This document shows positions 1,291-17,132 of a stretch of DNA of 64,000 bases, one piece after another. Origin of the DNA: Oceanispirochaeta crateris (lineage in GTDB: Bacteria; Spirochaetota; Spirochaetia; DSM-2461); assembly GCF_008329965.1 (NCBI RefSeq), contig NZ_CP036150.1, forward strand, positions 3,576,439 to 3,640,438, written 5' to 3'. The first letter of the stretch is position 1. The number at the start of each line of letters is the position of its first letter. Position numbers and translations under genes: made by a program. The notes below the pieces were generated by a model. It saw only the letters and a program-made list of their open reading frames with translations, was not told where the DNA came from and did no database searches.

Positions 1291-2178
1291 ATGACAAATC
1301 TATTAGCCACTCAAAGGCTGGGGCAGAAAAGCAGAGAGCAGTTATTAGGATGGGGGCTCGTGTTTCCGGCTGTTTTTATCATTCTTTCGTTAATTTTGTA
1401 TCCCATTATTTATAATATATATTTAAGCTTTTTTGATGTGAATCTTCACGAAGGAAATACTTTTACGGGACTGGAAAATCATCGATCGGTTCTAATGGAT
1501 TCTTTTTTCTGGAAATCAGTAATGACGACTGTCATTTATGTTTTTTTTACGACAGTCGGGACGACTCTTTTTGGTTTGATTGTTGCCTTAGTGATGAATC
1601 AGGATTTTCCTTTAAGAGGGCTTGTTAGAAGTTTAGTTCTGTTTCCCTATGTAGCCCCCGTTATTTCTGTTGTTTTTGCCTGGCAGTTTATCTTTGATCC
1701 GGTCAATGGGATTGTAATGGATGTTCTTGTTGAGAGGTTAGGGTTTTTTAGCGAACGTGTAAATCTTATCGGTTCTCCCTCATCCGCTGTTTGGATTGCC
1801 ATTATATTCAGTATCTGGAAGAATTTTCCTTTTTCTTATCTTATGATTCTTTCCCGTTTGCAGGGAATCGATAAAAATCTCTTCGAAGCTGCCGAAGTGG
1901 ACGGAGCCTCTGGCTGGGAAAGATTCCGTTTTATTACGCTCCCTGAAATTTACTTTGTAACTGGATCTATTATTTTATTACGGGTTATTTGGAATTTTAA
2001 TAAATTCGAAGAAATTTACCTTTTGACTACGAATGTTAAAGTCTTGTCTATATATACCTATTTTAAAGCTTTTGTGGGTACTATGGATATGGGACAGGGG
2101 GCAGCGCTAGCTCTGATTCAGTTTCTGCTGCTTATTGGTTTTATTCTTATTTATGTGAAGAAGGTTCTCAAATGGTAA
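1291..2178 (+). CDS. Carbohydrate ABC transporter permease (MalF/UgpA type)
   Basis: Inner-membrane permease of 295 residues, six predicted membrane helices (first at about residues 20-45), binding-protein-dependent transport family. The cytoplasmic EAA loop that docks the ATPase is clear at about residues 202-215 (EAAEVDGASGWERFRFITLP). The start ATG has a GGAG Shine-Dalgarno about 8 nt upstream. It forms a heterodimer with the next gene, which overlaps its stop by 7 nt. No ATPase gene follows, so the system probably uses a shared MsiK/UgpC-type ATPase encoded elsewhere. Substrate unknown. Confidence 0.9.
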   Translation: MTNLLATQRLGQKSREQLLGWGLVFPAVFIILSLILYPIIYNIYLSFFDVNLHEGNTFTGLENHRSVLMDSFFWKSVMTTVIYVFFTTVGTTLFGLIVALVMNQDFPLRGLVRSLVLFPYVAPVISVVFAWQFIFDPVNGIVMDVLVERLGFFSERVNLIGSPSSAVWIAIIFSIWKNFPFSYLMILSRLQGIDKNLFEAAEVDGASGWERFRFITLPEIYFVTGSIILLRVIWNFNKFEEIYLLTTNVKVLSIYTYFKAFVGTMDMGQGAALALIQFLLLIGFILIYVKKVLKW

Positions 2179-3134
2179 CGAAACGAAGCCCCATACGATC
2201 AATAGGTTTTTTTATTCTCATTATTTTCATCGTATCATTTTGTATCTTTCCCTTTTTTCAAATGCTCTCTACTTCTCTTAAATACCAGTGGGATTGGGGA
2301 AATCCCTCACTCATACCAACTCAGATTAATACAGAGGCTTATAAGGAGCTTCTGAATGTGGGCCAGAATCTTAAAAACGTTCCTGAATCTATACTTGAAC
2401 TCCTGGAGAATACTCCGGATATGACTAAGGCTCAAAGGGATACCATTCTCGCAAAGTATAGAAATAGTGGAGATGTGTTCCCCTTTCCAAAGTATTTTTT
2501 AAATTCTCTGGCGCTTTCGGGTGTCGCTGCTCTTCTTTCGGTATTCATTGCTATTCTCGGTGCCTATTCATTTAGCAGGTTGCGTTTTACCGGGCGTTCT
2601 ACTGTGCAGAGGGGAGTTCTTTTTGTATATATGTTTGGCGGAATACTCTTGCTGATCCCTTTGTATAAAGTTTGTGTCAGCCTGGGATTTCTATCCACAA
2701 AGGGAGGGACTTTTGGAGCTTTACTTGTGATCTATATGGTGCAGACCCTGCCAGTCTCTCTGTATATGCTGGGTAACTTTTTCAGGACTATCCCTTTTTC
2801 AATTGAAGAAGCCGCTATGATTGAAGGTTCCAGCAGACTGGGTACAATCTGGCGTATCATAATACCTCTTTCTATCTCAGCAATTATCACCGTCTATATT
2901 TACTCTTTTATGATTGCCTGGAACGAGTATCTATTTGCTTCTGTTTTTCTAAAAGGATATAAAGATCTCTATACCCTACCCATGGGGCTCCGAGCTCTGT
3001 TTGTTTCCAAAAATGCGGTATGGGATAGGATTATGGCCGCTTCAGTACTTACAGCAACTCCTGTTATTGCCTTATTTATGATCATACAGAAAAATCTGAC
3101 CGGAGGACTTTCTGAGGGCGGTGTCAAAGGGTAG
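2172..3134 (+). CDS. Carbohydrate ABC transporter permease (MalG/UgpE type) with periplasmic insertion
   Basis: Second permease half, 320 residues. EAA loop at about residues 210-225 (EEAAMIEGSSRLGTIWRIII). The ATG overlaps the stop of the preceding permease (ATGGTAA), showing translational coupling. The family normally runs from helix 1 through a short periplasmic stretch to the conserved F-x-x-Y-F-x-N-S motif before helix 2. Here that stretch (about residues 50-105) carries an extra charged, predicted helical segment with repeated Glu, Asp and Lys before FPKYFLNS. The rest matches MalG-type proteins. The gene ends 55 nt before the convergent GntR gene. Confidence 0.9.
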   Translation: MVTKRSPIRSIGFFILIIFIVSFCIFPFFQMLSTSLKYQWDWGNPSLIPTQINTEAYKELLNVGQNLKNVPESILELLENTPDMTKAQRDTILAKYRNSGDVFPFPKYFLNSLALSGVAALLSVFIAILGAYSFSRLRFTGRSTVQRGVLFVYMFGGILLLIPLYKVCVSLGFLSTKGGTFGALLVIYMVQTLPVSLYMLGNFFRTIPFSIEEAAMIEGSSRLGTIWRIIIPLSISAIITVYIYSFMIAWNEYLFASVFLKGYKDLYTLPMGLRALFVSKNAVWDRIMAASVLTATPVIALFMIIQKNLTGGLSEGGVKG

Positions 3135-3189
3135 TACTGTGAGAAGACTTAAAGTCAGGGATAGATTTTACAGCTTATATCGCATTCTT

Positions 3190-3918
3190 TTATTCTGAAG
3201 ACTCATCAAGATTCTCAACCTTCATGAGGGTGAGCATAATATGACTTTCCATTGTTTTTTTGGCTAGATCTGAGTTCCGAACGACAATGGCCTCAAGCAT
3301 TTTATGATGGTCGGCGATACTAGTTTCCAGGCTGCCTCTAACATAGCCTGTTTTAGAAAAGCTCCGTATAAGCAGACTGGTAAGATGGGTGTAAAGAGAA
3401 ATGAGTATTTTATTCTCAGTGGCATCGATGATTGATTTATGCAATTCTAAATCAAGCATATTGTAAGCATCAATTTTGTTTTCTTCGGCTTTGAGGTCCA
3501 GCTCTTCAATGAATTTTGCAAATTGTGCTACGAACCCTTTGGGAGGATTTGCAGCAATATCATAGATGGCCTGAGATTCAATGATTCGTCTGGTTTTTGT
3601 AAGATCTATGAGCAGATCCTTTTGCTTTGGAAAGTGAAACACCACAGATCCCATTAGAATCTCCAAAAAATGATCCAAATTATTCTCTTTAACAAAGACG
3701 CCTTTTCCTTGTCTGGTTTCTACCATTCCCCGTGATTCAAGGGTGCGGATTGCTTCTCTGATTGAGCGAGTCCCTACTTGTAGCTTTTCTGACAGTTCCG
3801 CTTGAGAAGGAAGTTTATCCCCAGGAGAAAGATTATTTTCAGCAATAATATTTTCCAAAGCATAAGTAACTTCATCTGAGATCTTTACTTTTTTAAGTGG
3901 TGTAATATCTTTGTACAT
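3190..3918 (-). CDS. GntR-family (FCD/FadR type) transcriptional regulator
   Basis: Repressor of 242 residues. The N-terminal winged HTH (about residues 12-78) has the GntR signature SPGDKLPSQAELSEKLQVG followed by RSIREAIRTLESRGMVE. The C-terminal FCD ligand-binding domain (about 95-235) has the expected metal-site pattern: Asp and His in DLELHKS, His in ADHHKM and a last His in MESHI. It is divergent from the dctP TRAP operon and shares a 165-nt intergenic region holding two palindromes and opposed promoters. It is therefore very likely the local, self-regulating repressor of dctPQM and the lyase genes, released by a carboxylate ligand (inferred). Confidence 0.9.
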   Translation of the reverse strand: MYKDITPLKKVKISDEVTYALENIIAENNLSPGDKLPSQAELSEKLQVGTRSIREAIRTLESRGMVETRQGKGVFVKENNLDHFLEILMGSVVFHFPKQKDLLIDLTKTRRIIESQAIYDIAANPPKGFVAQFAKFIEELDLKAEENKIDAYNMLDLELHKSIIDATENKILISLYTHLTSLLIRSFSKTGYVRGSLETSIADHHKMLEAIVVRNSDLAKKTMESHIMLTLMKVENLDESSE

Positions 3919-3956
3919 ATTTCCTTGTAGACGATTATAGACTGGTTTTAAACATT

Positions 3957-3984
3957 ATTGTATCCCCCTTTAGTCATATGTCAA
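3957..3984 (-). promoter_or_regulatory. Sigma70-type promoter of the GntR gene
   Basis: Read on the minus strand: -35 TTGACA (3984-3979), 16-nt spacer, -10 TACAAT (3962-3957), about 40 nt ahead of the regulator start. The -35 box lies inside the palindrome at 3976-3991, consistent with autorepression. Confidence 0.6.
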
Positions 3985-3991
3985 GACATAT
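3976..3991. promoter_or_regulatory. Palindromic operator 1 in gntR-dctP intergenic region
   Basis: Perfect inverted repeat ATATGTC-AA-GACATAT covering the -35 box of the GntR gene. Size and symmetry fit a dimeric winged-helix repressor. Binding by the adjacent GntR protein is inferred. Confidence 0.6.
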
Positions 3992-4000
3992 AATTATAAG

Positions 4001-4029
4001 TTGACTTATGACATAAGTCATAATACAAT
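4001..4029 (+). promoter_or_regulatory. dctP promoter with embedded operator 2
   Basis: -35 TTGACT (4001-4006), 17-nt spacer, -10 TACAAT (4024-4029). A perfect 19-nt odd-centred palindrome, TGACTTATGACATAAGTCA (4002-4020), overlaps the -35 box and fills most of the spacer. A bound repressor there would exclude RNA polymerase. Confidence 0.68.
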
Positions 4030-4083
4030 CTTCATACCCGATTTGATCGGGAATATATTAATAGACGATTCAAAGGAGTCAAA

Positions 4084-5103
4084 ATGAAAAAACTATTAAC
4101 TTTGGTTTTGCTTTCTGTCTTTTCAATGTCTCTGGTATTTGCCAGTGGTCAGGCAGAAGCTGGTGCTGAAAAAGTCATTGAAATCAGTTTCTCATCTGTC
4201 AGTGTTCCTGGAGATGCACATACTGAAGCAATGAATGTATTTAAAGAAGAGCTGGAAAAAATTTCCGGCGGAAGCATGGTTGTTAACGTATATCACTCTG
4301 GTCAGCTCTTTTCACAGGAAGGAGAACAGGATGCCATTAGACAGGGAACTGTTGATATGGTTTATACCAGTGCTCCATGGCTGGCAGAATTTGTTCCTTA
4401 CCTCTCCATGTTCGGAGCTGTATATACTTTCCAGGGATATGATCACATGACCACAGTCCTCAATGGCGAAATTGGAAAACAGGTCTTTGATGACGTTGTT
4501 GAATCACAGGGAATCCGTCCTTTAGGTGCTTACTACCTGGGAACCAGACAACTCAACCTAGTTGAAAAAGTCGGACCTGTCAGAACACCTGAAGACATGT
4601 CCGGTGTTAAATTAAGAACTCCGGGTAGTCCTTCATGGATTGCTCTTGGTAAAGCGCTGGGTGGAAATCCAACACCCATGTCTTTCGGTGAAGTCTATAT
4701 GGGACTGAAGACCGGAGCAGTTGAAGGTCAGGATAATCCTCTTGGAACAGACAAGAATGCCAAGTTCTATGAAGTAACAAAGTACATCGTTTTAACAAAC
4801 CATGTTGTAGACTCCACCTGGCCCACCATCAACGAACAAAAGTGGCAGTCCTTCAATGATGAACAGAAGGGATGGGTTTTGGAAGCAGTTGATAAAGCAA
4901 GAGCCTACTGTGATGAAGCAAATCTGAAAACAGAAGCTGAAATTCTTGACTTTTTCAGGGGTGAGGGTTTGATTATTGTCGAAGATCCCGATGTTCAGGC
5001 ATTTGCCGAATACGCAAGAAATTCGTATATGACAGAAAGCCAGGATATCTCTAAAGACTGGGATTGGGACCTGTACGACAAGGTTCAGGGAATGGTCAAA
5101 TAA
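4084..5103 (+). CDS. dctP: TRAP transporter substrate-binding protein DctP
   Basis: Periplasmic solute receptor of a TRAP transporter, 339 residues. Signal peptide at residues 1-20 ending FASG. The mature protein shows the DctP fold text: HTEAMNVFKEELEKISGG, then the signature region around residues 175-215 (GVKLRTPGSPSWIALGKALGGNPTPMSFGEVYMGLKTGAVEGQDNP). In this family the Arg after the KL motif clamps the ligand carboxylate, so the substrate is probably an organic acid. SD AAGGAG lies just before the ATG. The lyase genes downstream suggest a keto- or sugar-acid substrate; the exact ligand is unknown. Confidence 0.93.
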   Translation: MKKLLTLVLLSVFSMSLVFASGQAEAGAEKVIEISFSSVSVPGDAHTEAMNVFKEELEKISGGSMVVNVYHSGQLFSQEGEQDAIRQGTVDMVYTSAPWLAEFVPYLSMFGAVYTFQGYDHMTTVLNGEIGKQVFDDVVESQGIRPLGAYYLGTRQLNLVEKVGPVRTPEDMSGVKLRTPGSPSWIALGKALGGNPTPMSFGEVYMGLKTGAVEGQDNPLGTDKNAKFYEVTKYIVLTNHVVDSTWPTINEQKWQSFNDEQKGWVLEAVDKARAYCDEANLKTEAEILDFFRGEGLIIVEDPDVQAFAEYARNSYMTESQDISKDWDWDLYDKVQGMVK

Positions 5104-5116
5104 TAAGGTTTATTTT

Positions 5117-5154
5117 CCCGGTGATGCCTGTAAGGATCTCGCCGGGTTTGTTTT
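5117..5154 (+). promoter_or_regulatory. Attenuator-like stem-loop between dctP and dctQ
   Basis: 8-bp stem CCCGGTGA / TCGCCGGG (5117-5124 with 5139-5146, one G-T pair), followed by TTTGTTTT. It looks like a leaky terminator or RNA-stabilising hairpin that would keep binding-protein expression above that of the membrane subunits. Confidence 0.6.
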
Positions 5155-5166
5155 AAAAGGTACTCA

Positions 5167-5661
5167 ATGAAAACAGGATTAAAAAAAATTGGGAAAATAT
5201 TGGTAGATACAATTGAAGTCTACATTCCCTTTGCCGCCTTTGTGACACTCTTTAGTGTCTTTTTAATAGGAATATTTTTTCGTTATTTTCTTAAACCCCT
5301 CACATGGACATTGGAATTGTCGCTGATGTGCTTCATCTGGACCTCTCTTCTCGGTGGTTTGTATGCGAAACGGGACAATTCTCATGTTGTTTTTACCATG
5401 ATCTATGATGCAGTTAAACCTCTTACACAGATCTGGATGCGCATTTGCGGTCATAGCTTATTGGTTATTTCCTTCCTCATCGGACTGGTTCCTTCTTGGA
5501 AGTATGTCCTTTTTATGGGTTATAAAAAATCGAATGTTCTGAAGATTCCAATGGATGTGGTCTACATGCCTTTTGTTATATTTTTGGCATTTATGATAGG
5601 TCGCTATTCTCTTGATATATATCATGATGTTCGAAAACTGATGAAGGGAGATATTTCATGA
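5167..5661 (+). CDS. dctQ: TRAP transporter small permease subunit DctQ
   Basis: Four-helix membrane protein of 164 residues, the usual DctQ size. Hydrophobic segments lie at about residues 20-42, 54-70, 90-112 and 132-150. The conserved small-permease pattern around residues 34-66 is present: an FFRYFL motif, then a Trp-Leu-Glu-type segment TWTLELSLMCFIWTSLLG, then KRDNSHVVF. DctQ binds the large subunit DctM and is needed for transport. The stop overlaps the start of dctM (ATGA), so the two are translationally coupled. Confidence 0.9.
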   Translation: MKTGLKKIGKILVDTIEVYIPFAAFVTLFSVFLIGIFFRYFLKPLTWTLELSLMCFIWTSLLGGLYAKRDNSHVVFTMIYDAVKPLTQIWMRICGHSLLVISFLIGLVPSWKYVLFMGYKKSNVLKIPMDVVYMPFVIFLAFMIGRYSLDIYHDVRKLMKGDIS

Positions 5662-6953
5662 ATCTGGCTCTACTCGTATTTTTAATTTGTTTTATATTAA
5701 TATTCTTGATCAGAATTCCCATCGCACCGGGTATGTTAATGGCTTCATTATTTTACTTTGCCATTGCCCAAAGCCCTGCTGCGGATATTAGTGTGGCTGC
5801 CAGTCAGTTTCTAACGAATATGAACTCTAAGTTTGTGCTCATTGCCGTGCCTCTGTTTGTGTTTATGGCGGAAGTCATGAATAGCGGAAAAGTGACGGAT
5901 ATGATATTCCGGTTTGCCAATGCGATTGTCGGTCGTAAACGGGGAGCTTTGGGCCATGTTAATGTTGTGGCTTCCATTATCTTTTCGGGTATGACCGGTT
6001 CTGCTCTGGCAGATGCCTCCGGTTTGGGTATGATGGAAATCAAGGCGATGAATGATAATGGATATGAACGGGGATTCAGCAGTGCCATTACGGCAGCTTC
6101 AGCGACAATCGGTCCTATTTTTCCTCCCAGTATTCCGATGATATTCTATTCCATGCTCTCAGGAGCCTCCATTGGAGCCCTGTTTATGGGAGGTATGGTT
6201 CCCGGTATCCTGATCGGGCTGGCTCTCATGGGTTACATTGCTGTTATTGCACGCGTTCGGAATTATCCTAGAGGAGAGAAACTGGCATTCCGGGATACTC
6301 TGGCTATAACGATTAAGGCCTTTCCCGCTTTATTATCGATCCTTGTCCTCCTTGGTGGTATCTACTCAGGTATCGTTACCCCGACAGAAGCCGGGGCTTT
6401 GGCTGCATTGTACGCCATTCTTGTTTCATTCTTCGTTTATAGAGCCATGGGGTTTAAGGATCTGATTCAGGTTGTCATGAATACAATAAAAACGACAGGG
6501 ACTCTTTCTCTGTTGGTTGGAACAGCCTATGCCTTTTCATATATTGTGGCAATTGAACACATTCCAGATGCTGTTGCCGGTTGGCTTTTGACAGTGACAC
6601 AGAATAAATATGTTCTTCTCCTTCTCATCAATATTGTTTTTATTATCCTTGGAATGTTCATTGACACCATGTGCATTACTCTGGTCTTTATACCTATTGT
6701 TCTGCCACTTGTGAATGCCCTCGGTATTGATCTGGTTCATTTTGGAGTTATGATCACACTGAATATGATGATAGGGCTTTCTACACCTCCTTTTGGAATG
6801 TTGTTATTCGTTGTGTCGGGCATATCTAAGACACCCTTGAAAGAGATCATCAAGGAAATCTTGCCTATGCTACTTGTTCTTTTCGGTGTTTTGTTTCTGG
6901 TAACTTACATTCCCCAGATCGTAACATTTTTACCCAATGCACTTGGAATGTAA
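5658..6953 (+). CDS. dctM: TRAP transporter large permease subunit DctM
   Basis: Large permease, 431 residues and about 12 hydrophobic segments, the sodium-coupled transport channel of the TRAP system. Diagnostic family stretches include GMTGSALADASGLGMMEIKAMNDNGYE (about residues 111-138), the IGPIFPPSIPMIFYSMLSGAS segment after it, and TPTEAGALAALYAI near residue 237. C-terminal GMFIDTMCITLVFIPIVLPL and LSTPPFGMLLFVVSG are also typical. It overlaps dctQ by 4 nt and is followed 20 nt later by a lyase gene in the same operon. Confidence 0.93.
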   Translation: MNLALLVFLICFILIFLIRIPIAPGMLMASLFYFAIAQSPAADISVAASQFLTNMNSKFVLIAVPLFVFMAEVMNSGKVTDMIFRFANAIVGRKRGALGHVNVVASIIFSGMTGSALADASGLGMMEIKAMNDNGYERGFSSAITAASATIGPIFPPSIPMIFYSMLSGASIGALFMGGMVPGILIGLALMGYIAVIARVRNYPRGEKLAFRDTLAITIKAFPALLSILVLLGGIYSGIVTPTEAGALAALYAILVSFFVYRAMGFKDLIQVVMNTIKTTGTLSLLVGTAYAFSYIVAIEHIPDAVAGWLLTVTQNKYVLLLLINIVFIILGMFIDTMCITLVFIPIVLPLVNALGIDLVHFGVMITLNMMIGLSTPPFGMLLFVVSGISKTPLKEIIKEILPMLLVLFGVLFLVTYIPQIVTFLPNALGM

Positions 6954-6973
6954 GTAATTTAAAGGAATTTAAC

Positions 6974-7906
6974 ATGAGAAAAGAAATTACCAATGGTGTT
7001 TATCCTACTATGCTAACACCATTTAAAACAGATAAGTCCATCGATTTTGAGGCCTTAAACCGACTTGTTGGATGGTATATCAAAAGAGGGATTGATGGTC
7101 TTTTTGCCGTCTGTCAGTCCAGCGCTATGTTTGAACTGAGTCGTGAAGAAAGAGTAGAGTTGTGTCGTAAGACAATTGAGTTTGCCGGCGACCATTACCC
7201 CGTTATGGCATCGGGTCATGTGTCTGACACCATTGAAGGACAAATTGATGACATGCAGGCCATGGCCTCAGCAGGTCCAGATGCCCTTGTTTTGGTGAGC
7301 AACAGATTAGCTGATCCCTGGGAAGATGATTCGGTCTGGTTAAAAAATCTGGATCTTTTACTGAAGGGCCTGCCTACGGATATCCCTCTTGGTTTTTATG
7401 AATGTCCCTATCCTTATAAAAGAGTCCTTTCAACAGAAGTTGTAAAAGAACTGATCAACATGGAGCGTTTTGAGTTTATTAAAGACACCTGTTGTGATCC
7501 GGATATGATCAAAGAACGTGCCCGCTTGTCTAAGGGGACTAAGGTTAAATTCTTTAATGCCAATGCAGCCACTCTTTTAATGAGTCTAAAAGAGGGTTTT
7601 GCAGGATACAGCGGTATCATGACCAATTTTCATAGCGATCTGTATCACAGGCTCTGTCATGATTGGAAAGAAATGGGAGATGAGGCAGTCGAATTGCAGA
7701 ACTATCTCGGTTTTGCCTCAACCATTGAAAATCAGTTTTACCCAGCCAATGCCCGCTATTCACTGATGAAAGAGGGTGTCTTCACCAACCTCGTCAGCCG
7801 GCGGCAGGATGCAAGGTTGAGACAGATCACAAAGTCTCAGGAAATGGAGATTGATCAGTTTTATACCATTTCAGAACAGATGAGCCAGCGGTTTAAAAGA
7901 GACTGA
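6974..7906 (+). CDS. Dihydrodipicolinate synthase/N-acetylneuraminate lyase family protein
   Basis: Class I (Schiff-base) aldolase/dehydratase of the DapA/NanA family, 310 residues, complete TIM barrel. Visible catalytic elements are the strand-6 lysine in EFIKDTCCD (about residue 167), which forms the Schiff base, and the upstream Tyr-rich GFYECPYPYKR segment (about 139-149). The usual GSTGE motif on strand 2 is replaced by CQSSAMFELS, so the carboxylate-binding loop is atypical and it is unlikely to be true DapA. SD AAGGA lies 8 nt before the ATG. Co-transcription with dctPQM suggests it cleaves or dehydrates the imported acid. Confidence 0.85.
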   Translation: MRKEITNGVYPTMLTPFKTDKSIDFEALNRLVGWYIKRGIDGLFAVCQSSAMFELSREERVELCRKTIEFAGDHYPVMASGHVSDTIEGQIDDMQAMASAGPDALVLVSNRLADPWEDDSVWLKNLDLLLKGLPTDIPLGFYECPYPYKRVLSTEVVKELINMERFEFIKDTCCDPDMIKERARLSKGTKVKFFNANAATLLMSLKEGFAGYSGIMTNFHSDLYHRLCHDWKEMGDEAVELQNYLGFASTIENQFYPANARYSLMKEGVFTNLVSRRQDARLRQITKSQEMEIDQFYTISEQMSQRFKRD

Positions 7907-7936
7907 GTCTTTATAGGACAATGAGGTAAGCTGTAA

Positions 7937-8434
7937 GTGAATCCTATCAAGGACCTATTAGGCATTATTACCGTTCTCAACACCCCCTTCACAAGTGAGG
8001 ATAAGCTGGATGTTCTCTCACTTGTGAGGAATGTTCGTTATGCCCTTGATGCAGGCGTTAAAGGCTTTCTTGTTCCCGCTATGGCCTCTGAAGTAGGGGT
8101 GTTGAGCGAATCTGAGAAGCTGGAAATGGTTAGGACTGTTGTGGATGCTTGTGAAGGGCGGGTTCCTGTGATTGGAGGAACATCTGCTCCCTCGCTGAAA
8201 GCCATGTGCCGCTTGGCTGAGAGCAATCTCAAGCTGGGCTGTCAGGGCATTTTGGCAAACATCCCCTATGAGAACAACGATCAATATAGAGCAAACGTTT
8301 CTGAGCTGGATCGGTTGGGACCGGAGTTTCTAATGCTTCAGGACTGGGATTCCAGCGGTTACGGCCTCCCGTCCGATCATAGGTCTTCCTCTGCTAGGAT
8401 ATCAGATCTTCTATATCTTATTCCGGGCGAGTAA
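7937..8434 (+). pseudogene. 3'-truncated DapA/NanA-family lyase
   Basis: Starts at a GTG (NPIKDLLGIITVLNTPF) 30 nt after the previous lyase, sharing the family N-terminus. It follows the barrel through strand 5 (FLMLQDWDSSGYGLP, about residue 143), then changes to unrelated text and stops at residue 165. Family members are about 290-310 residues. The Schiff-base lysine strand and the whole C-terminal half are missing, and no reading frame downstream to 8718 restores them. It also lacks the usual GSNGE loop (PAMASEVGVLSE here). Most likely a decayed gene after deletion or frameshift; less likely a short functional paralogue. Confidence 0.72.
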
Positions 8435-8718
8435 GCTCTGTATCATTCTCGATCAGTCGCTTCTCTCTAGTTATTAATTTATTACTTTTATGCTATTCTG
8501 GGGATCTAAATAGGATCAGAAAGTGTTCATATAAGAATCATTAGATTTCTCTGATATAAAATATAAATCTTTAATTTTTCAGCATGAAAAGCTAATTTTT
8601 GATTTTAAATACCAAAAATTAAACAATTTACAGTGTAGTAGAATGAATTTCCTTGACAGCTGATCTGAAGCCGTGCAAATTCTATTGAATATGTGATAAT
8701 CAGATTGGCAGGTGTGAT
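8435..8718. other. AT-rich intergenic region upstream of second GntR gene
   Basis: No convincing reading frame. It contains a TTGACA box at 8653-8658 without a clear -10 at normal spacing, and an operator half-site at 8694-8708 (listed separately). It presumably also holds the decayed end of the truncated lyase. Confidence 0.5.
8694..8708. promoter_or_regulatory. Half-site matching the tct-operon operator
   Basis: TGATAATCAGATTGG, ending 10 nt before the regulator ATG. It matches 14 of 15 bases of the perfect version of the arm of the palindrome at 10044-10074. Suggests the GntR protein at 8719 controls its own gene as well as the tct operon (inferred). Confidence 0.5.
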
Positions 8719-9423
8719 ATGGATGATATTTTGATGGCAATGTGCCGCGATGAAGATGATAAAATGGTGCTCACATTGGTCAGTTATATTCGGACTAAAG
8801 GATTGAAGGCTGGTGATAAGTTACCATCGATCAGAAGTTTTGCCTCGGAATTAAATCTTTCCCAAAGTCAAGTTCGTTCGGGGTTTATGAGAGCTTCGGC
8901 TTTAGGGTTGATTAAAATAGTCCCTCGTTCAGGTTGTTATATGGCAAATCTGGGAATTTCTGAACTTATCGGGCCATTCGCTTTGTTATTTGAAGCTTTG
9001 TATATGAATGTACAACTTCCTCTTTTTGACCTTTATGAATTGAAGACTACATTGGAGAGAGGCATCTCTAAACGGGTTGCTAAAATAAGAACGATTGAAG
9101 AACTAGCCCAGTTGAAAGCCATAATTGACTCTATGGATAAAGTCTCAGAGCAAAGTGAAATGGTGCTCCTTGATGAGCAATTTCATAATAAATTGGCAGA
9201 ATGTTCTAGGAATCCTCTATTTTATTCTATAATAAATGTCATTCATTCAATGCTACGGGAATCCCGGATGAAATATTCAGACTTTGTTTCAGAATTTCCT
9301 CAATCAATAAAAGATCATAAGGATTTATATGAAGCTTTAAAGGAGCAAGATGAATTGCTTTCCGGTAAAATAGCCGAAAGGCACAGCAATCGTCGAATTG
9401 AGAGGCTAGCACTGGACTATTGA
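8719..9423 (+). CDS. GntR-family (FCD type) transcriptional regulator
   Basis: Regulator of 234 residues. The N-terminal winged HTH (about residues 12-78) includes GLKAGDKLPSIRSFASELNLSQSQVRSGFMRASALGLI. The C-terminal FCD domain has metal-ligand candidates in LLDEQFHNKLAE, KDHKDLYEAL and AERHSNRR. The HTH ends in a Ser/Ile-rich wing (PRSGCYM) instead of the usual GKGVFV. It sits upstream of and co-oriented with the tctCBA operon, separated by 750 nt that include a strong promoter. A matching half-site lies at 8694-8708, making it the best candidate for the operator at 10044-10074. Confidence 0.86.
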   Translation: MDDILMAMCRDEDDKMVLTLVSYIRTKGLKAGDKLPSIRSFASELNLSQSQVRSGFMRASALGLIKIVPRSGCYMANLGISELIGPFALLFEALYMNVQLPLFDLYELKTTLERGISKRVAKIRTIEELAQLKAIIDSMDKVSEQSEMVLLDEQFHNKLAECSRNPLFYSIINVIHSMLRESRMKYSDFVSEFPQSIKDHKDLYEALKEQDELLSGKIAERHSNRRIERLALDY

Positions 9424-10006
9424 TTGATGATTGTATCTGTTGGGTTCTGGCATTGTTAAATTTTTTTTAATCTTACTTTTGCTAAGAGAAATAAACTACA
9501 CCTAAAGTGGAAGACTCTTTATTTCTATGAAAATAGAACATGAAATATTTTCAACCATTAAGTGTTGTAAAAAGTCAATTTTATACAATCTATTCGCCAT
9601 ATTGCACTTATTATGTCAAAGTATTTTCTAAAATTACCGTGATGAAATATATTTTCAAAGTAATTGCTCATAGAATCAGTATCAATTTAGATACTATTGT
9701 TGATGCTACAAAAAAGGTTTTTCCCATATGAGAAAAGGTGTTTTCTCCGGAACAGTTCCTGTGAAGTTCTAAGACTAATTTAATCTAAAAATCATTCAAA
9801 TCTGCTTGAACTATATGAGAGAAGAATTCATTTGCAAGTGAATATTTTTCAGAGAAGAGCACATTTAAATATTTTGATAGCCAATTTTGAAGATTAGTAA
9901 AAATGATTCAAATACATATAATGTATGAAAATATGCTACATTCTAAGAAAGAATTTGGATTCTGATTAGCAATTATATACGGATTTTGGTAATAAATAAT
10001 TTTTTA
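9424..10006. other. Long AT-rich non-coding leader
   Basis: Very AT-rich, no credible gene. The 63-codon frame at 9540-9731 has no Shine-Dalgarno and a composition like its surroundings. A partial copy of the operator arm (CTGATTAGCAAT, 9962-9973) lies upstream of the tct promoter. Nothing else recognised. Confidence 0.5.
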
Positions 10007-10034
10007 TTGACAAATAGAATTTGAGTGCTATAAT
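10007..10034 (+). promoter_or_regulatory. Consensus sigma70 promoter of the tct operon
   Basis: -35 TTGACA (10007-10012) and -10 TATAAT (10029-10034), both perfect consensus hexamers, with a 16-nt spacer. Expected start of transcription is near 10041, giving a leader of about 135 nt. A promoter this strong would need repression, which the palindrome at 10044-10074 could supply. Confidence 0.78.
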
Positions 10035-10043
10035 TTACAAATC

Positions 10044-10074
10044 CCAATCTGATAATCAGTGATTAGCAGATTGG
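10044..10074. promoter_or_regulatory. 31-nt operator palindrome at +1 of the tct operon
   Basis: Left arm CCAATCTGATAATCA (10044-10058), centre G, right arm TGATTAGCAGATTGG (10060-10074); 14 of 15 arm positions pair. The left arm plus centre also contains an 11-nt odd palindrome, CTGATAATCAG. It sits directly downstream of the predicted start site, a classic repressor roadblock position. Confidence 0.7.
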
Positions 10075-10175
10075 ATTCCTTATGTATATAAGGGAAATTG
10101 CAAAAAGGATGGTATACGAATTTTTAGTCAAATCTACAGTGGATTTACTAAGTATGTAGCCATTAGGAGGTTGTT

Positions 10176-11159
10176 TTGAAAGTGAAAAGAATGATTGTGA
10201 TGATTGCTTGTGTTCTGTTGTCTTCAACTGCTTTGTTTGCCAATGGTACCCCTGAGGAATATCCAAATAAGGATGTTGAATTTATAGTAAGCTCAGGAGC
10301 TGGTGGTGGTACAGATGCTATCTCTCGAAAAATTTCCCAGCTTGCTGAAAAAGAATTGGGAACTGCTATCTATTTTGTTAACAAGCCTGGTGCCGATGAT
10401 GCTGTTGGACCAAATTTGCTAATGGGAGCCAAACCTGATGGTTATACAATTGGTAACTTTAACTATGGTTCAATCATCAATGCACCTTTTACCGGCCTTA
10501 TCAAAGGTTATGATCTAGCAAAAGTTCAGATATTTGCTTTAATTACCCAGGAGCCTGATGCGCTTATGGTTACAAAAAACTCTCCTTATACAACTTTTGA
10601 TGAGTTTATTGAGGCAGCGAAAGCAAATCCTGGAAAAATTAAAGTTGCCGATCAGGGAATTGGTAGCCGAGTAAACTTACTTGCTCTTAAGATTCAGGAC
10701 TTCTATGGTGTGCAGTTCAACATGATTTCTTACCAAGGCTCCGCTCCTCAGCGAGAAGCAATACTTAACGGAGAAGTTGATGCAGCAATCACCAGTCTTG
10801 GGGACTTCGCACCCTTACTTAACTCCGGTGATGCAATCGGTGTAGTAGAATTTAGCTCAACTCAAAATGGTGGTTTTCCAACAGTTCCTAACAGCGTGGA
10901 ACTCGGCTTGGACGACAGCTTACTCTCAGGATCTTTCTTGACTCTTGCAGCTCCTGTAGAAACGCCTGCTGAAATTATCGAAAAACTTACTAAGGCTTTT
11001 GGTTCAGCAGCAACTAGCACAGAGTTTTCTGAATGGACTAAAACTGTTGGTGTAACTCCAGATTTTAAAAGTGGACCAGAATTGAAAGCTTTCATTGACG
11101 GAAAGATTGAAGGTGAAACTAAAGCTCTACAGGCTCTTAAGGACGCTGGTGTTCTGTAG
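10176..11159 (+). CDS. tctC: Tripartite tricarboxylate transporter substrate-binding protein (TctC/Bug family)
   Basis: Periplasmic receptor of a TTT transporter, 327 residues. The start is a TTG with a perfect TAGGAGG 5 nt upstream (10164-10170); a GTG two codons later is the alternative. Signal peptide to about residue 23 (ends LFANG). The Bug-family text follows: YPNKDVEFIVSSGAGGGTD at about residue 28, KPDGYTIGNFNYGS near 87, and the strand-turn YQGSAPQREAILNGEVDAA near 185. Ligands of the family are carboxylates held by two water-mediated loops; the exact acid is not predictable. First gene of the operon. Confidence 0.92.
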   Translation: MKVKRMIVMIACVLLSSTALFANGTPEEYPNKDVEFIVSSGAGGGTDAISRKISQLAEKELGTAIYFVNKPGADDAVGPNLLMGAKPDGYTIGNFNYGSIINAPFTGLIKGYDLAKVQIFALITQEPDALMVTKNSPYTTFDEFIEAAKANPGKIKVADQGIGSRVNLLALKIQDFYGVQFNMISYQGSAPQREAILNGEVDAAITSLGDFAPLLNSGDAIGVVEFSSTQNGGFPTVPNSVELGLDDSLLSGSFLTLAAPVETPAEIIEKLTKAFGSAATSTEFSEWTKTVGVTPDFKSGPELKAFIDGKIEGETKALQALKDAGVL

Positions 11160-11238: not shown

Positions 11239-11303
11239 AATTCTATTTTGTTGAATATAGATCCTCACATACTTAACTGGAGATGTGCTTTGGAGTTTTT
11301 AAA

Positions 11304-11786
11304 ATGAATAATATAAAAAGATATCTACAATCAAAGGTAATCATTCCTTTATGTGTACAGGTAGTTCTCACCATCTATGTGGTCAGTGCTTTACAACTTG
11401 CACCTCCTATTGTAAATAGGATGCTTTCTGAATCTTCTTTTCCCTTTGTTATCTTTCTTATTGCTACACCTGCTGCCATCAAATTACTGTTTGATGGAGT
11501 TAAGGAGGTAAAAACAGAGATTTCTGAAGGTAAGGAAATAGTTTATGTCCGAAAGAGTATTAAGCCATTATTGATTGTTCTAATAATGGCCGTGTTTATT
11601 CTGTTATTTGAGCTGCTTGGTTTTAGTATTCTTGCTCCTCTATATGTGTTTTTCTTTATGCTGGTTTATGACGATAGGCCTGAAAAAATAGTTAAGAAAA
11701 TTTCTTATTCTCTTCTTGTTGCTATCGTGGTTTATGTAATGTATGTATTCGCATTTGATATTAGATTTCCTGAGATTTGGAGGTAA
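11304..11786 (+). CDS. tctB: Tripartite tricarboxylate transporter small subunit (TctB family)
   Basis: Small membrane subunit of 160 residues with four hydrophobic segments. The ATG at 11304 is preferred over an in-frame ATG at 11283 because TGGAG lies 9 nt before it. TctB proteins are poorly conserved. The assignment rests on size, topology (helices near residues 10-30, 42-60, 88-110 and 120-148), a charged central loop, and position between tctC and tctA. The gene ends three bases before the tctA ATG, and GGAGG inside its last codons serves as the tctA ribosome-binding site. Confidence 0.8.
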   Translation: MNNIKRYLQSKVIIPLCVQVVLTIYVVSALQLAPPIVNRMLSESSFPFVIFLIATPAAIKLLFDGVKEVKTEISEGKEIVYVRKSIKPLLIVLIMAVFILLFELLGFSILAPLYVFFFMLVYDDRPEKIVKKISYSLLVAIVVYVMYVFAFDIRFPEIWR

Positions 11787-11789
11787 GTT

Positions 11790-13334
11790 ATGGATCAGAT
11801 ACTACAGATTCTCAGCGGAACCTTAGTTGTTCTTCAACCGTTGGCCCTTTTGTATCTTTTTGTGGGCTTTTTTATTGGTATAATCTTTGGTGCATTACCG
11901 GGACTTACTTCGATGCTTGCCATCGTTTTGCTTCTTCCAATGACATATACAATGCCTATGACATATGCATTGATTATGTGTATGGGTGTCTATATGTCAG
12001 GAATCTATTCAGGAAGTATTACTGCAATAACCATCAGTATTCCAGGGGCACCATCGGCACTCATGACGTGTATGGAAGGTCATCCTTTGATGAAGAAGGG
12101 ACAGGGTGCAAAAGCTATCGGACACGCCACTATCGGTTCGGCAATAGGTGGGTCTATTGGCGCTCTCCTGCTTATCTTTGTTTCTCCTTTGGCCCTTAAG
12201 CTTGCATTGAAAATCAGGACCCCTGGTAAATTTTCCCTTATTTTATTTGCCCTTATAGTGATTGTTATAGTCGAAAAGAAAAGAACCAAGGCTATAATTT
12301 CAATGGCATTTGGTATCATTCTTTCTACAGTTGGAATGGACCCTCTTAAATCAGTATCCCGGTTCACATTTGGTAATCCTAATCTTATAGAAGGGATTGA
12401 TTTGACCACATTGATAATTGGAGCTTTTGCTATAAGTGAATTGTTTGCCCAGGCCACTGTAAATAATACAGAATACTCCAAGATGACAAGTGCTGCTAAC
12501 AGCATAAAGTTTAAACGGAAAGATTTTTTTCCTCCTTTAAAAGAGATGAAGGAGATAGGATTCCTTACATATATTAAAAGTGCTTTTACTGGATATCTAA
12601 TCGGTGTATTACCAGGAGCAGGTGCCTCTATGGCTGGATTCGTCTCCTATGTAGAAGCCAAAAGAACCTCCAAACATCCTGAAAGATTCGGTAAAGGTGC
12701 TATTGATGGGCTCGTCGCATCAGAAACTGCAAATAATGCGATGTGTGGTGGCGCTTTAGTTCCCATGCTCGCTTTGGGTATTCCTGGAGATGGTACGACG
12801 GCAATTATTCTTGGTGTTCTCATGGTATATGGTGTCGTTCCTGGTCCTAATCTTTTAGTCAAGCAAATGGCTGTCATTGCACCAATGTATATGGCACTCC
12901 TTATCAGTGCCGGGATACTTTTACCGCTATCTCTTTTTCTGTTTGGTCCCTATTATCTTAAAATTGTGAGGATTAATCGTCTTGTCCTGTACAGTGGGAT
13001 AGCTTTGATCGCAATCTTGGGCGTCTTTGCTGCTACTTATTCTGTTTTTCAAATGGGTGTTGCCTTGGTTATTGGAGTGGTTATGTATTACTTCAAGAAA
13101 CAGAAATATCCAAATGTGCCCTTCATATTAGCAGTCATTTTAGGTCCTCTATGCGAACAATATTTGAGAACTTCTCTCACTTTGAGCAGTGGCAACCCAA
13201 TGGTATTTATTACTAATTTTGATAGTTTGTTTTTCATTTTGCTCACGATTGCTTTCGTTATCCTTTTACCAAGAGCCAATAGACGGTCTGAAGCTTTGGA
13301 AAAAGAAAGAAATCGAGAAAATTGTAAATGTTAA
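11790..13334 (+). CDS. tctA: Tripartite tricarboxylate transporter large permease (TctA family)
   Basis: Main permease, 514 residues and about 12 transmembrane segments. TctA signatures are clear: GALPGLTSMLAIVLLLPMTY (about residues 33-52), the SGSITAITISIPGAPSALMT stretch (about 74-93), GVLPGAGASMAGFVSYVEAKR (about 270-290) and ETANNAMCGGALVPMLALGIPGDGTTAIILG (about 311-341). Transport is driven by an ion gradient together with the TctC receptor. The last codons overlap the start of the downstream aldolase by 7 nt, so the catabolic genes are coupled to the transporter. Confidence 0.94.
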   Translation: MDQILQILSGTLVVLQPLALLYLFVGFFIGIIFGALPGLTSMLAIVLLLPMTYTMPMTYALIMCMGVYMSGIYSGSITAITISIPGAPSALMTCMEGHPLMKKGQGAKAIGHATIGSAIGGSIGALLLIFVSPLALKLALKIRTPGKFSLILFALIVIVIVEKKRTKAIISMAFGIILSTVGMDPLKSVSRFTFGNPNLIEGIDLTTLIIGAFAISELFAQATVNNTEYSKMTSAANSIKFKRKDFFPPLKEMKEIGFLTYIKSAFTGYLIGVLPGAGASMAGFVSYVEAKRTSKHPERFGKGAIDGLVASETANNAMCGGALVPMLALGIPGDGTTAIILGVLMVYGVVPGPNLLVKQMAVIAPMYMALLISAGILLPLSLFLFGPYYLKIVRINRLVLYSGIALIAILGVFAATYSVFQMGVALVIGVVMYYFKKQKYPNVPFILAVILGPLCEQYLRTSLTLSSGNPMVFITNFDSLFFILLTIAFVILLPRANRRSEALEKERNRENCKC

Positions 13335-14107
13335 AAAAAAATCAGAATGATGTAAAAACAAAATTGCAAAACGGCAAGAAAGTTCTGGGAGCTTGGGCTC
13401 AGGCTGGGAGTAATATCACTGCAGAAGTGATGGCTGATTCAGGAATGGATTTCATTATCATCGATATGGAGCATTCTCCCATTGATCTTCCTGTCCTTGT
13501 TACTCAGTTTCAGGCTATGAACGGATATCCTGCAGTACCCTTTGTGCGGGCTCCCTGGAATGACTTTGTACAGATTAAAAGGATACTGGATGCAGGTGCT
13601 TTTGGTATCATCATTCCTAACGTTGAGACCGTTGAGGAGGCTAAGAAAGCCATATCTGCTGTGAAGTATCCTATGGCAGGAATCCGTGGAGTAGCTGGCA
13701 GTACCAGGGCTGCTCATTATGGAAATGATTCTCTTTCTTATTTTGTAAAAGCAAACGAAGAGGTAATGCTCATTTTGATGATTGAGTCTCCCAGGGGAAT
13801 TGAAAATCTGGATGAGATCCTCAAGCTTGAAGGCTTTGACGGAATCATGGTCGGTCCTGTCGACCTTGCCACAACAATGGGATATTTAGGAAATCCAGAA
13901 GTTCCTGAAGCTAAACAAGCACTTGAATCCATTGAGAAGAAGGTTATTGCATCTGGAAAATATCTCATGGCCCTTAGTTCTGATTGGGAAGGAGCTAAAA
14001 ACAAGTTTGCAAAAGGAGCCCATCTTGTGACTTGTATGTCTGACACTCTTTCTCTAGGTGTGTTGGCGCGTAAAAATGTAGATCGGTTTTCTGAAATATA
14101 TTCATAA
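13328..14107 (+). CDS. HpcH/HpaI-family aldolase (class II) 1
   Basis: Metal-dependent pyruvate-type aldolase of 259 residues (2-keto-3-deoxy-sugar-acid / 2,4-dihydroxyhept-2-ene-1,7-dioate aldolase family). Key features: DMEHSPID near residues 48-55 with the catalytic His; PFVRAPWND with the substrate-binding Arg; the metal-binding Glu in MIESPRGIENLDEI (about residue 153); and the closing GPVDLATTMGY motif with the metal-binding Asp. It would cleave a 2-keto-3-deoxy acid to pyruvate plus an aldehyde. The ATG overlaps the end of tctA. A paralogue follows 185 nt later; the two differ enough to suggest different substrates. Confidence 0.87.
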   Translation: MLKKNQNDVKTKLQNGKKVLGAWAQAGSNITAEVMADSGMDFIIIDMEHSPIDLPVLVTQFQAMNGYPAVPFVRAPWNDFVQIKRILDAGAFGIIIPNVETVEEAKKAISAVKYPMAGIRGVAGSTRAAHYGNDSLSYFVKANEEVMLILMIESPRGIENLDEILKLEGFDGIMVGPVDLATTMGYLGNPEVPEAKQALESIEKKVIASGKYLMALSSDWEGAKNKFAKGAHLVTCMSDTLSLGVLARKNVDRFSEIYS

Positions 14108-16247: not shown

Positions 16248-17132
16248 GTGAAAATTGGATTTATAGGACTGGGAATCATGGGCAAACCCATGGTAAAAAA
16301 CCTGCTGAAAGCAGGTCACGAAATTGTAGCTTTTGATTTGAATTCAGAAAGCCTTAAAGAAGTGACAGCCGCTGGTGCAGTTGCTGGTACTTCTGCTGCC
16401 GATGTGGCCTCTAAGACACCCTTGGTCATTACCATGCTTCCCAATTCACCACATGTAAAGACTGTTGTTATGGGAAAGGAGGGAGTTCTTGAGGGAGCTA
16501 AGGAAGGTATGATACTCATTGATATGAGTTCCATCGCTCCTTTGGCCAGTCAGGAAATCAATAAGGCTTGTTCCGAAAAGAAAGTTAAGATGCTTGATGC
16601 TCCTGTTTCTGGTGGCGAACCAAAAGCTGTTGACGGAACACTGGCTATTATGGTTGGCGGAGATAAGGCTCTTTTTGAAGAAGTAAAAGACTTGCTCCTC
16701 GTCATGGGTGCAACTGCTGTTCATTGTGGAAGCATCGGTGCTGGAAATACTACTAAACTTGCCAACCAAATTATTGTTGCCCTCAATATTGCTGCAGTTT
16801 CTGAAGCTTTTACCTTAGTTAAAAAGGCTGGAGTTGATCCCCAATTAGTATTCGACGCTATTAAGGGTGGTCTAGCAGGCTCCACAGTTTTGAATGCTAA
16901 AGCTCCTATGATGATGGATAGCAATTTCAAACCTGGTTTCAAGATCGATCTCCATATTAAGGATTTAGCCAATGCTATGGATACAGGACATGGAACAGGA
17001 TCTCCTCTCCCACTTACTGCTTCTGTTCGTGAAATGATGGAGACTCTTCATGCAGATGGGAATGGCGGAGACGACCACAGTGCTCTTGCAAAGTATTATG
17101 CAAAAGTAAGTGGAATGAAAATAGGTAAATAG
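16248..17132 (+). CDS. garR: 2-hydroxy-3-oxopropionate (tartronate semialdehyde) reductase-like, paralogue 1
   Basis: Beta-hydroxyacid dehydrogenase of 294 residues. N-terminal Rossmann signature GFIGLGIMGKPMVKNLLKAG. Substrate-binding motif DAPVSGGEPKA (about residues 118-128). Catalytic Lys in GAGNTTKLANQI (about 170), and a KDL-type C-terminal helix. Reduces tartronate semialdehyde (or a related 3-oxo acid) to D-glycerate. The start is GTG with GGAGG 6 nt upstream. It closely resembles the second copy at 36800. Its place behind two class II aldolases mirrors galactarate/glucarate routes, where aldolase products are pyruvate and tartronate semialdehyde. Confidence 0.88.
   Translation: MKIGFIGLGIMGKPMVKNLLKAGHEIVAFDLNSESLKEVTAAGAVAGTSAADVASKTPLVITMLPNSPHVKTVVMGKEGVLEGAKEGMILIDMSSIAPLASQEINKACSEKKVKMLDAPVSGGEPKAVDGTLAIMVGGDKALFEEVKDLLLVMGATAVHCGSIGAGNTTKLANQIIVALNIAAVSEAFTLVKKAGVDPQLVFDAIKGGLAGSTVLNAKAPMMMDSNFKPGFKIDLHIKDLANAMDTGHGTGSPLPLTASVREMMETLHADGNGGDDHSALAKYYAKVSGMKIGK

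Follow-up and report, generated by a model that had tools for sequence, protein, structure and literature searches.

For the FadR subfamily of GntR regulators, an operator consensus of TKGT-N3-ACMA with a GT-N3-AC core has been described, with exceptions that include NanR and BioR, and in 13 groups of the subfamily an extra box lies 7–12 nt from the palindrome centre (PMC4494728). The table of analysed proteins in this survey of GntR operators lists no spirochaetes (PMC4494728). In this work, we have analysed a 64-kb stretch of DNA from the spirochaete Oceanispirochaeta crateris, called the window below, in which a regulator gene of this subfamily stands before a tctCBA operon. Unlike the consensus, the unit of the putative operator found here, CTGATNATCAG, has GA-N3-TC in the place of GT-N3-AC. 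The window features given below in the form start..end are on the + strand.

The tct promoter and its palindrome

The tct promoter consists of TTGACA as the -35 (10007..10012) and, 16 nt further on, TATAAT as the -10 (10029..10034), which is of the extended type with TGC directly 5' to it. It scores 12/12 in the promoter scan, with TG ahead of the -10, and is the only one of 9 promoter-like sites to do so; since shuffles give 9.8 such sites, the scan by itself proves little. In the alignment of 11 tctC upstream regions, TTGACA is invariant (11/11), part of the -10 and the operator are conserved, as is GGAGGT in most, and there is little fixed beyond TTGACA, the operator and the ribosome-binding site. 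In this alignment L125 is represented by L147, and L132, L117, L115 and L038 are left out because in them gntR is followed by a gene other than tctC. A preliminary description, made from the letters of this DNA, had placed a consensus TTGACA-16-TATAAT promoter at the tct start, and it is borne out at that very place.

Downstream of the promoter, a 31-nt palindrome centred on G10059 spans 10044..10074, and the palindrome scan, shuffles, alignment and symmetry mark it as a putative operator. It has the 15+1+15 form that had been described there, with arms complementary at 14 of 15 positions and A10052/G10066 as the only failing pair, and is the only such palindrome with at least 13/15 in the window. 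Among 60 dinucleotide shuffles, none contains a palindrome of at least 14/15, and those of at least 13/15 have a mean of 0.1 per shuffle. In addition, the 31-mer has one match in the window and none in 100 shuffles.

In the whole genome (4.01 Mb), the half-site TGATNANCAGATTGG is found three times with 0 mismatches, i.e., in both arms and at 8694–8708. With 1 mismatch there are 21 further copies, against 2 in all for the reversed-pattern control. Of the 21, 20 overlap a long ORF (>100 codons, either strand), so that the excess probably stems from codon usage, and we have set it aside as an indication of real sites. The copy at 8694–8708, before gntR, had been described as an echo of the arm; it is indeed an exact half-site, though of one arm only, its partner arm being not recognisable here. 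A further partial echo proposed at 9962–9973 (CTGATTAGCAAT) did not hold up and was dropped: it differs from the unit at 2 positions, is placed upstream of the -35, and is without counterpart in the 10 other aligned upstream regions.

The most fitting reading of the 31-mer is a pair of 11-bp units that overlap and are offset by one helical turn. Unit 1 (CTGATAATCAG, 10049..10059) is a perfect 11-bp palindrome; unit 2 (GTGATTAGCAG, 10059..10069) has G10059 in common with it, and the two centres are 10 bp apart. We take the 11-mer as the primary unit because lone units are conserved before gntR in the window, in g37 and in the congener G002. Of the second unit, most g37 loci and the gntR of the window have a decayed copy or none.

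For 15 distinct composite sites, dyad symmetry is seen in 13–15 of 15 at ±1 to ±6, ±9, ±10 and ±13 and in 10–12 of 15 at ±8, ±11 and ±12, and it fails at ±7 (5/15), the position that fails in the window too. In the outer arms (±9 to ±14), 72 of 90 pairs are symmetric, compared with a shuffle mean of 64.3, and 4 of 5,000 shuffles are as high. This coordinated change supports a symmetric complex, in a test that is only indicative because the sequences are related and whose shuffle was devised after sight of them. Of the motif guessed beforehand, the unit CTGATAATCAG is conserved at gntR and tct as expected, and the dyad is kept to ±13 bp, not to ±15 bp.

Just after the operator, the leader contains a hairpin with an 8-bp stem (10076..10095), and the same place is occupied by a hairpin of different sequence in 8 other loci. 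That is, in 9/9 long-leader loci (the window, L124, L147, L126, L114, L127, L128, L129 and L130) a hairpin of 6–8 bp lies 1–4 nt after the conserved CAGnTT arm, and its sequence differs between lineages. For five representative lineages, the combined p against shuffles is 1.4e-4, in a test devised after sight of the sequences and with modest single z-scores (-0.7 to -3.6). By inspection of the alignment, the hairpin is absent in L131 and L116, which have short leaders. Rfam gave no match over 8400–10400 at E<=1.

The gntR gene and the recurrence of its putative sites

The gene gntR (8719..9423) encodes an FCD-type (FadR-subfamily) GntR regulator of 234 aa, as identified by Pfam, ortholog alignment and AlphaFold/Foldseek. 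The protein matches PF00392 at 30.7 bits (cut-off 27) and PF07729 at 70.9 bits (cut-off 24.3), and its best NCBIfam match is NanR, under the cut-off of that family. SQxR, D152, H156, H200 and H222 are invariant in the alignment of 15/15 orthologs; we take SQxR to belong to the recognition helix and the other four residues to be the FCD metal ligands. The AlphaFold model, built on the 15-sequence alignment, has a pLDDT of 83.7 and a pTM of 0.63. Foldseek relates it with probability 1.00 to 6az6, NanR, VanR and FadR at a TM of about 0.5 and an rmsd of 12–16 Å, presumably because the two domains are placed differently. Overall, sequence and fold both point to FCD-type regulators as the best relatives of solved structure.

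Before the gene, TTGACA (8653..8658), read from the sequence, is the -35 of a gntR promoter with a poor -10, and it stands at the corresponding place in L124, L125, L126, L114, L127, L128, L129 and L130. A single operator unit, GTGATAATCAG, follows at 8693..8703, its position relative to the start codon being -26; it is conserved, as the eight close orthologs each have a unit at -26 or -28. We propose the window's unit as an autoregulatory site. Just upstream of gntR, at 7937–8434, there is also a DHDPS-family ORF of 165 aa, which covers profile positions 2–108 of 289 and looks truncated.

The first ortholog search, in 61 genomes, gave one clear relative, in G002 (37%). A two-sequence alignment was then searched against genome_contigs (84,980 species genomes) and matched two contigs, from a Sphaerochaeta MAG (79%) and a Spirochaetales MAG (72%), and the regulator search at E<=1e-20 matched 9 of 392 genomes of the phylum and 13 of 139 Sphaerochaeta-family genomes. 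The ortholog set has 15 loci including the window, at 35–100% identity and from three spirochaete families, among which L127–L130, L126/L114 and L132/L115 are too closely related to count as independent. The set excludes the distant matches from G241, G207, G265, G197 and G509, and L118–L121, from four of these five genomes, contain no exact unit.

Conservation in orthologous upstream regions had been named beforehand as the refuting test of the proposed operator, and the operator has passed it strongly: CTGATNATCAG-type sites flank gntR in 15/15 loci. A unit within 1 mismatch of CTGATNATCAG adjoins gntR in all of them and is exact in 14/15; the remaining locus, L125, is at a contig end, and the separate tctC contig of its genome has an exact one. 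In the same loci, exact units number 15 in 7,399 nt of gntR flank vs 1 in 285,589 nt elsewhere, and those at <=1 mismatch number 30 vs 27, with flank sizes that were set after the sites had been seen (downstream flank of 700 nt in the window and 200 nt in the others).

We further searched the 139 Sphaerochaeta-family genomes for the composite pattern TCTRATNATCAGTGATTANCAGA at <=3 mismatches, and 20 of them matched. At <=2 mismatches the site is confined to 8/139; these are exactly the g81 genomes that have a close ortholog (E<=1e-90), and none of the remaining 131 matches. All 14 sites at this level are at the gntR–tctC locus (that of G508 on its tctC contig). Single units and no composite match are found in the four g37 genomes, where the ortholog is more distant. 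In the 392 genomes of the phylum, a pattern with N at the centre matched 11 at <=2 mismatches, and its reversed control 3. Only G000 and G402 match with 0–1 mismatch and G154 does so with 2, and all three carry a gntR ortholog; the lone 2-mismatch matches in eight genomes without an ortholog (E<=1e-20) are taken as background in view of the control. In G154, gntR and tctC are divergent with the site between them, and in L116 one site is common to both divergent genes.

Within the window's genome there are 15 exact copies of CTGATNATCAG, of which 14 are inside ORFs of at least 100 codons and the exception is unit 1 of the tct operator, so the regulon here is probably one operon plus gntR. The distant TctC loci L122 (G000:C1:3778000-3796000), L123 and L133 have 2, 3 and 5 units at <=1 mismatch, none of them tied to a tctC promoter and only that at L133:1224 exact. 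The window's genome encodes a second TctC, 45% identical, at G000:C1:3786545-3787519 (in L122), and its 18-kb surroundings contain no exact operator unit.

Of five congeners, G002 alone has a relative of the regulator that can be recognised, at the 37% given above, and the closest GntR (79%) and TctC (89%) are in the Sphaerochaeta MAG of a different family. The simplest reading of these sequence relationships would be a transfer of the cassette together with its operator between spirochaete families, which suggests that regulator and operator travel with it.

The operon and its proposed switch

The genes are in the order gntR, tctC, tctB, tctA, HpaI/GarL-like aldolase, second aldolase, hydroxyacid dehydrogenase, tartronate-semialdehyde reductase and DHDPS-family protein. 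By family match, we have assigned a tctC-type solute-binding protein (10176..11159), whose TTG start is aligned with the ATG of the orthologs, tctB (11283..11786), tctA (11790..13334) and an HpcH/HpaI aldolase that is GarL/HpaI-like and below curated cut-offs (13328..14107). The tartronate-semialdehyde reductase (2-hydroxy-3-oxopropionate reductase, 16248..17132) reaches 470 bits with a cut-off of 397. Citrate was dropped as the default reading of this tct operon, as the neighbours of the matched TctC, TctB and TctA families are sugar-acid enzymes and a GntR regulator; the TctCBA operon probably serves sugar diacids, not citrate, and the likely ligands would be aldarates or their keto-deoxy products.

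Beside the regulator of G002 are a galactarate dehydratase (780 bits, cut-off 731), an L-talarate/galactarate dehydratase (581, cut-off 500), a tartronate-semialdehyde reductase (503, cut-off 397) and a glucarate dehydratase that comes close to its cut-off (808.5 vs 828.7). The galactarate dehydratase family TIGR03248 is over its cut-off in 5 of 11 genomes searched, and in the window's genome it stays under it (best 294.6 bits vs 730.85). The cassette of L131 and L116 consists of gntR, tctCBA, an aldolase and one further protein without NCBIfam match, which by eye is taken to be a transaldolase. 

Two neighbouring clusters were also observed. In L038 (G002:C242), a galactarate/glucarate catabolic cluster with TctCBA-like genes at 1483–10556 adjoins the GntR ortholog and makes a galactarate link for a TctCBA transporter. 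In the window, 3190–3918 and 4084–6953 make up a second, separate carboxylate uptake cluster next door, in which another GntR-type regulator lies divergently to a TRAP transporter and DHDPS-family genes come after the latter.

Overall, we consider it very likely that the adjacent FCD-type GntR protein has the palindrome as its operator and would repress one local operon of tctCBA and sugar-acid genes, the latter probably for aldarate breakdown, as well as its own gene. Behind this reading are the site, its conservation and position, its co-occurrence with the regulator and its uniqueness in the genome, and from it we infer binding, the sign of regulation, the ligand and the number of dimers. 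That distant relatives have this site at corresponding places makes the switch look real. As for an autoregulated local repressor, sites at the own gene and at the neighbouring operon are conserved in the orthologs. A GntR repressor circuit over tct and gntR had been proposed before; its two sites stand, and its DNA binding and repression are predicted.

In this switch, CTGATNATCAG would be the 11-bp unit read by a dimer. The strong tct promoter has two such units with one common base, one helical turn apart, just downstream of the -10, and protein bound there would prevent RNA polymerase from reaching the promoter or from escaping it. For the weaker gntR promoter, the protein would have one unit left in this genome, and two in the majority of Sphaerochaeta relatives. 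When the substrate is present, a carboxylate ligand would free the protein, probably via the FCD metal site.

The same protein may act on the site as an activator, or as both, as some FadR-subfamily members are activators. However, the operator core, which begins 11–16 nt downstream of the tct -10 in the tctC upstream alignment and lies close to the gntR start, is at positions typical of repression, and the tct promoter is already at consensus, which makes activation quite improbable. Another protein may be considered as well, since at least 9 further GntR-type matches occur in the genome, all distant paralogs at 20–26% identity. Against this, the site and this gntR are found together in 8/8 genomes, the site is absent from 131 others, and it flanks this gntR in every ortholog locus; the chance that a different regulator binds it seems minimal.

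It would be just as surprising if the palindrome formed a hairpin in the 5'-terminal part of the tct RNA, acting in stability or pausing with no protein site. The segment 10040–10110 does fold well (z -3.95), and the symmetric two-sided changes at ±11 and ±14 suit RNA as well as a DNA dyad, but the bases themselves are conserved beyond pairing. Moreover, the lone 11-mer, with which no useful hairpin is possible, is conserved before gntR and in the g37 and G002 loci, and the L116 site is common to divergent genes. For the repressor switch itself, a more elaborate form may be imagined, in which two FCD-type dimers sit on one-base-overlapping tandem palindromes exactly one turn apart, symmetrically and with a GA-N3-TC code, and the leader hairpin of every long-leader locus is an RNA-level part; in this complete form it is rather unlikely.

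Comparison with known systems

We have searched the literature on CTGATAATCAG, CTGATTATCAG, CTGATNATCAG, CTGATWATCAG, TGATNATCA and TGATWATCA, and among the papers listed, none is on a GntR operator by its title and the start of its abstract, in a library with few subscription papers. With FadR, LldR, GlcC, DgoR and PdhR, as presented in the survey, the regulator here has in common the winged helix plus FCD, a carboxylate-related operon and autoregulation (PMC4494728), the last as proposed above. Its operator is like those of the subfamily consensus in being a palindrome of ~11 bp with K-G at positions 2–3 and C-M at 9–10, and differs in having A for the T of GT (PMC4494728). Since most FadR-subfamily proteins are reported to bind GT-N3-AC and the unit here is GA-N3-TC, the family rule does not lead one to expect that this protein binds it (PMC4494728). 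The extra-box operators of the survey also have a main palindrome and a weaker neighbour about one turn away, whereas here the neighbour is close to a complete unit and forms, together with the main one, a symmetric dyad of 27 bp (PMC4494728).

E. coli NanR on (GGTATA)3 is likewise of the FCD type, and its close-packed repeats are described as holding several dimers (PMC8012715). NanR, however, reads direct repeats where the units here are palindromes, and has a 32-residue N-terminal extension that the protein here is without, its winged helix starting near residue 12–22 (PMC8012715). In TctD/BctDE on the citrate tctCBA, a regulator gene is also beside tctCBA, but these are described as activating in response to citrate, and here there are a one-component GntR and sugar-acid enzymes (PMC5812351). 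For the TctCBA transporter of the cassette, sugar diacids rather than citrate are the probable substrates. The cassette also offers a testable candidate regulator–operator pair for spirochaetes, with a code departing from the subfamily rule. Within the literature searched, the pair is a new one of an ordinary type, and the core of its operator is unusual.
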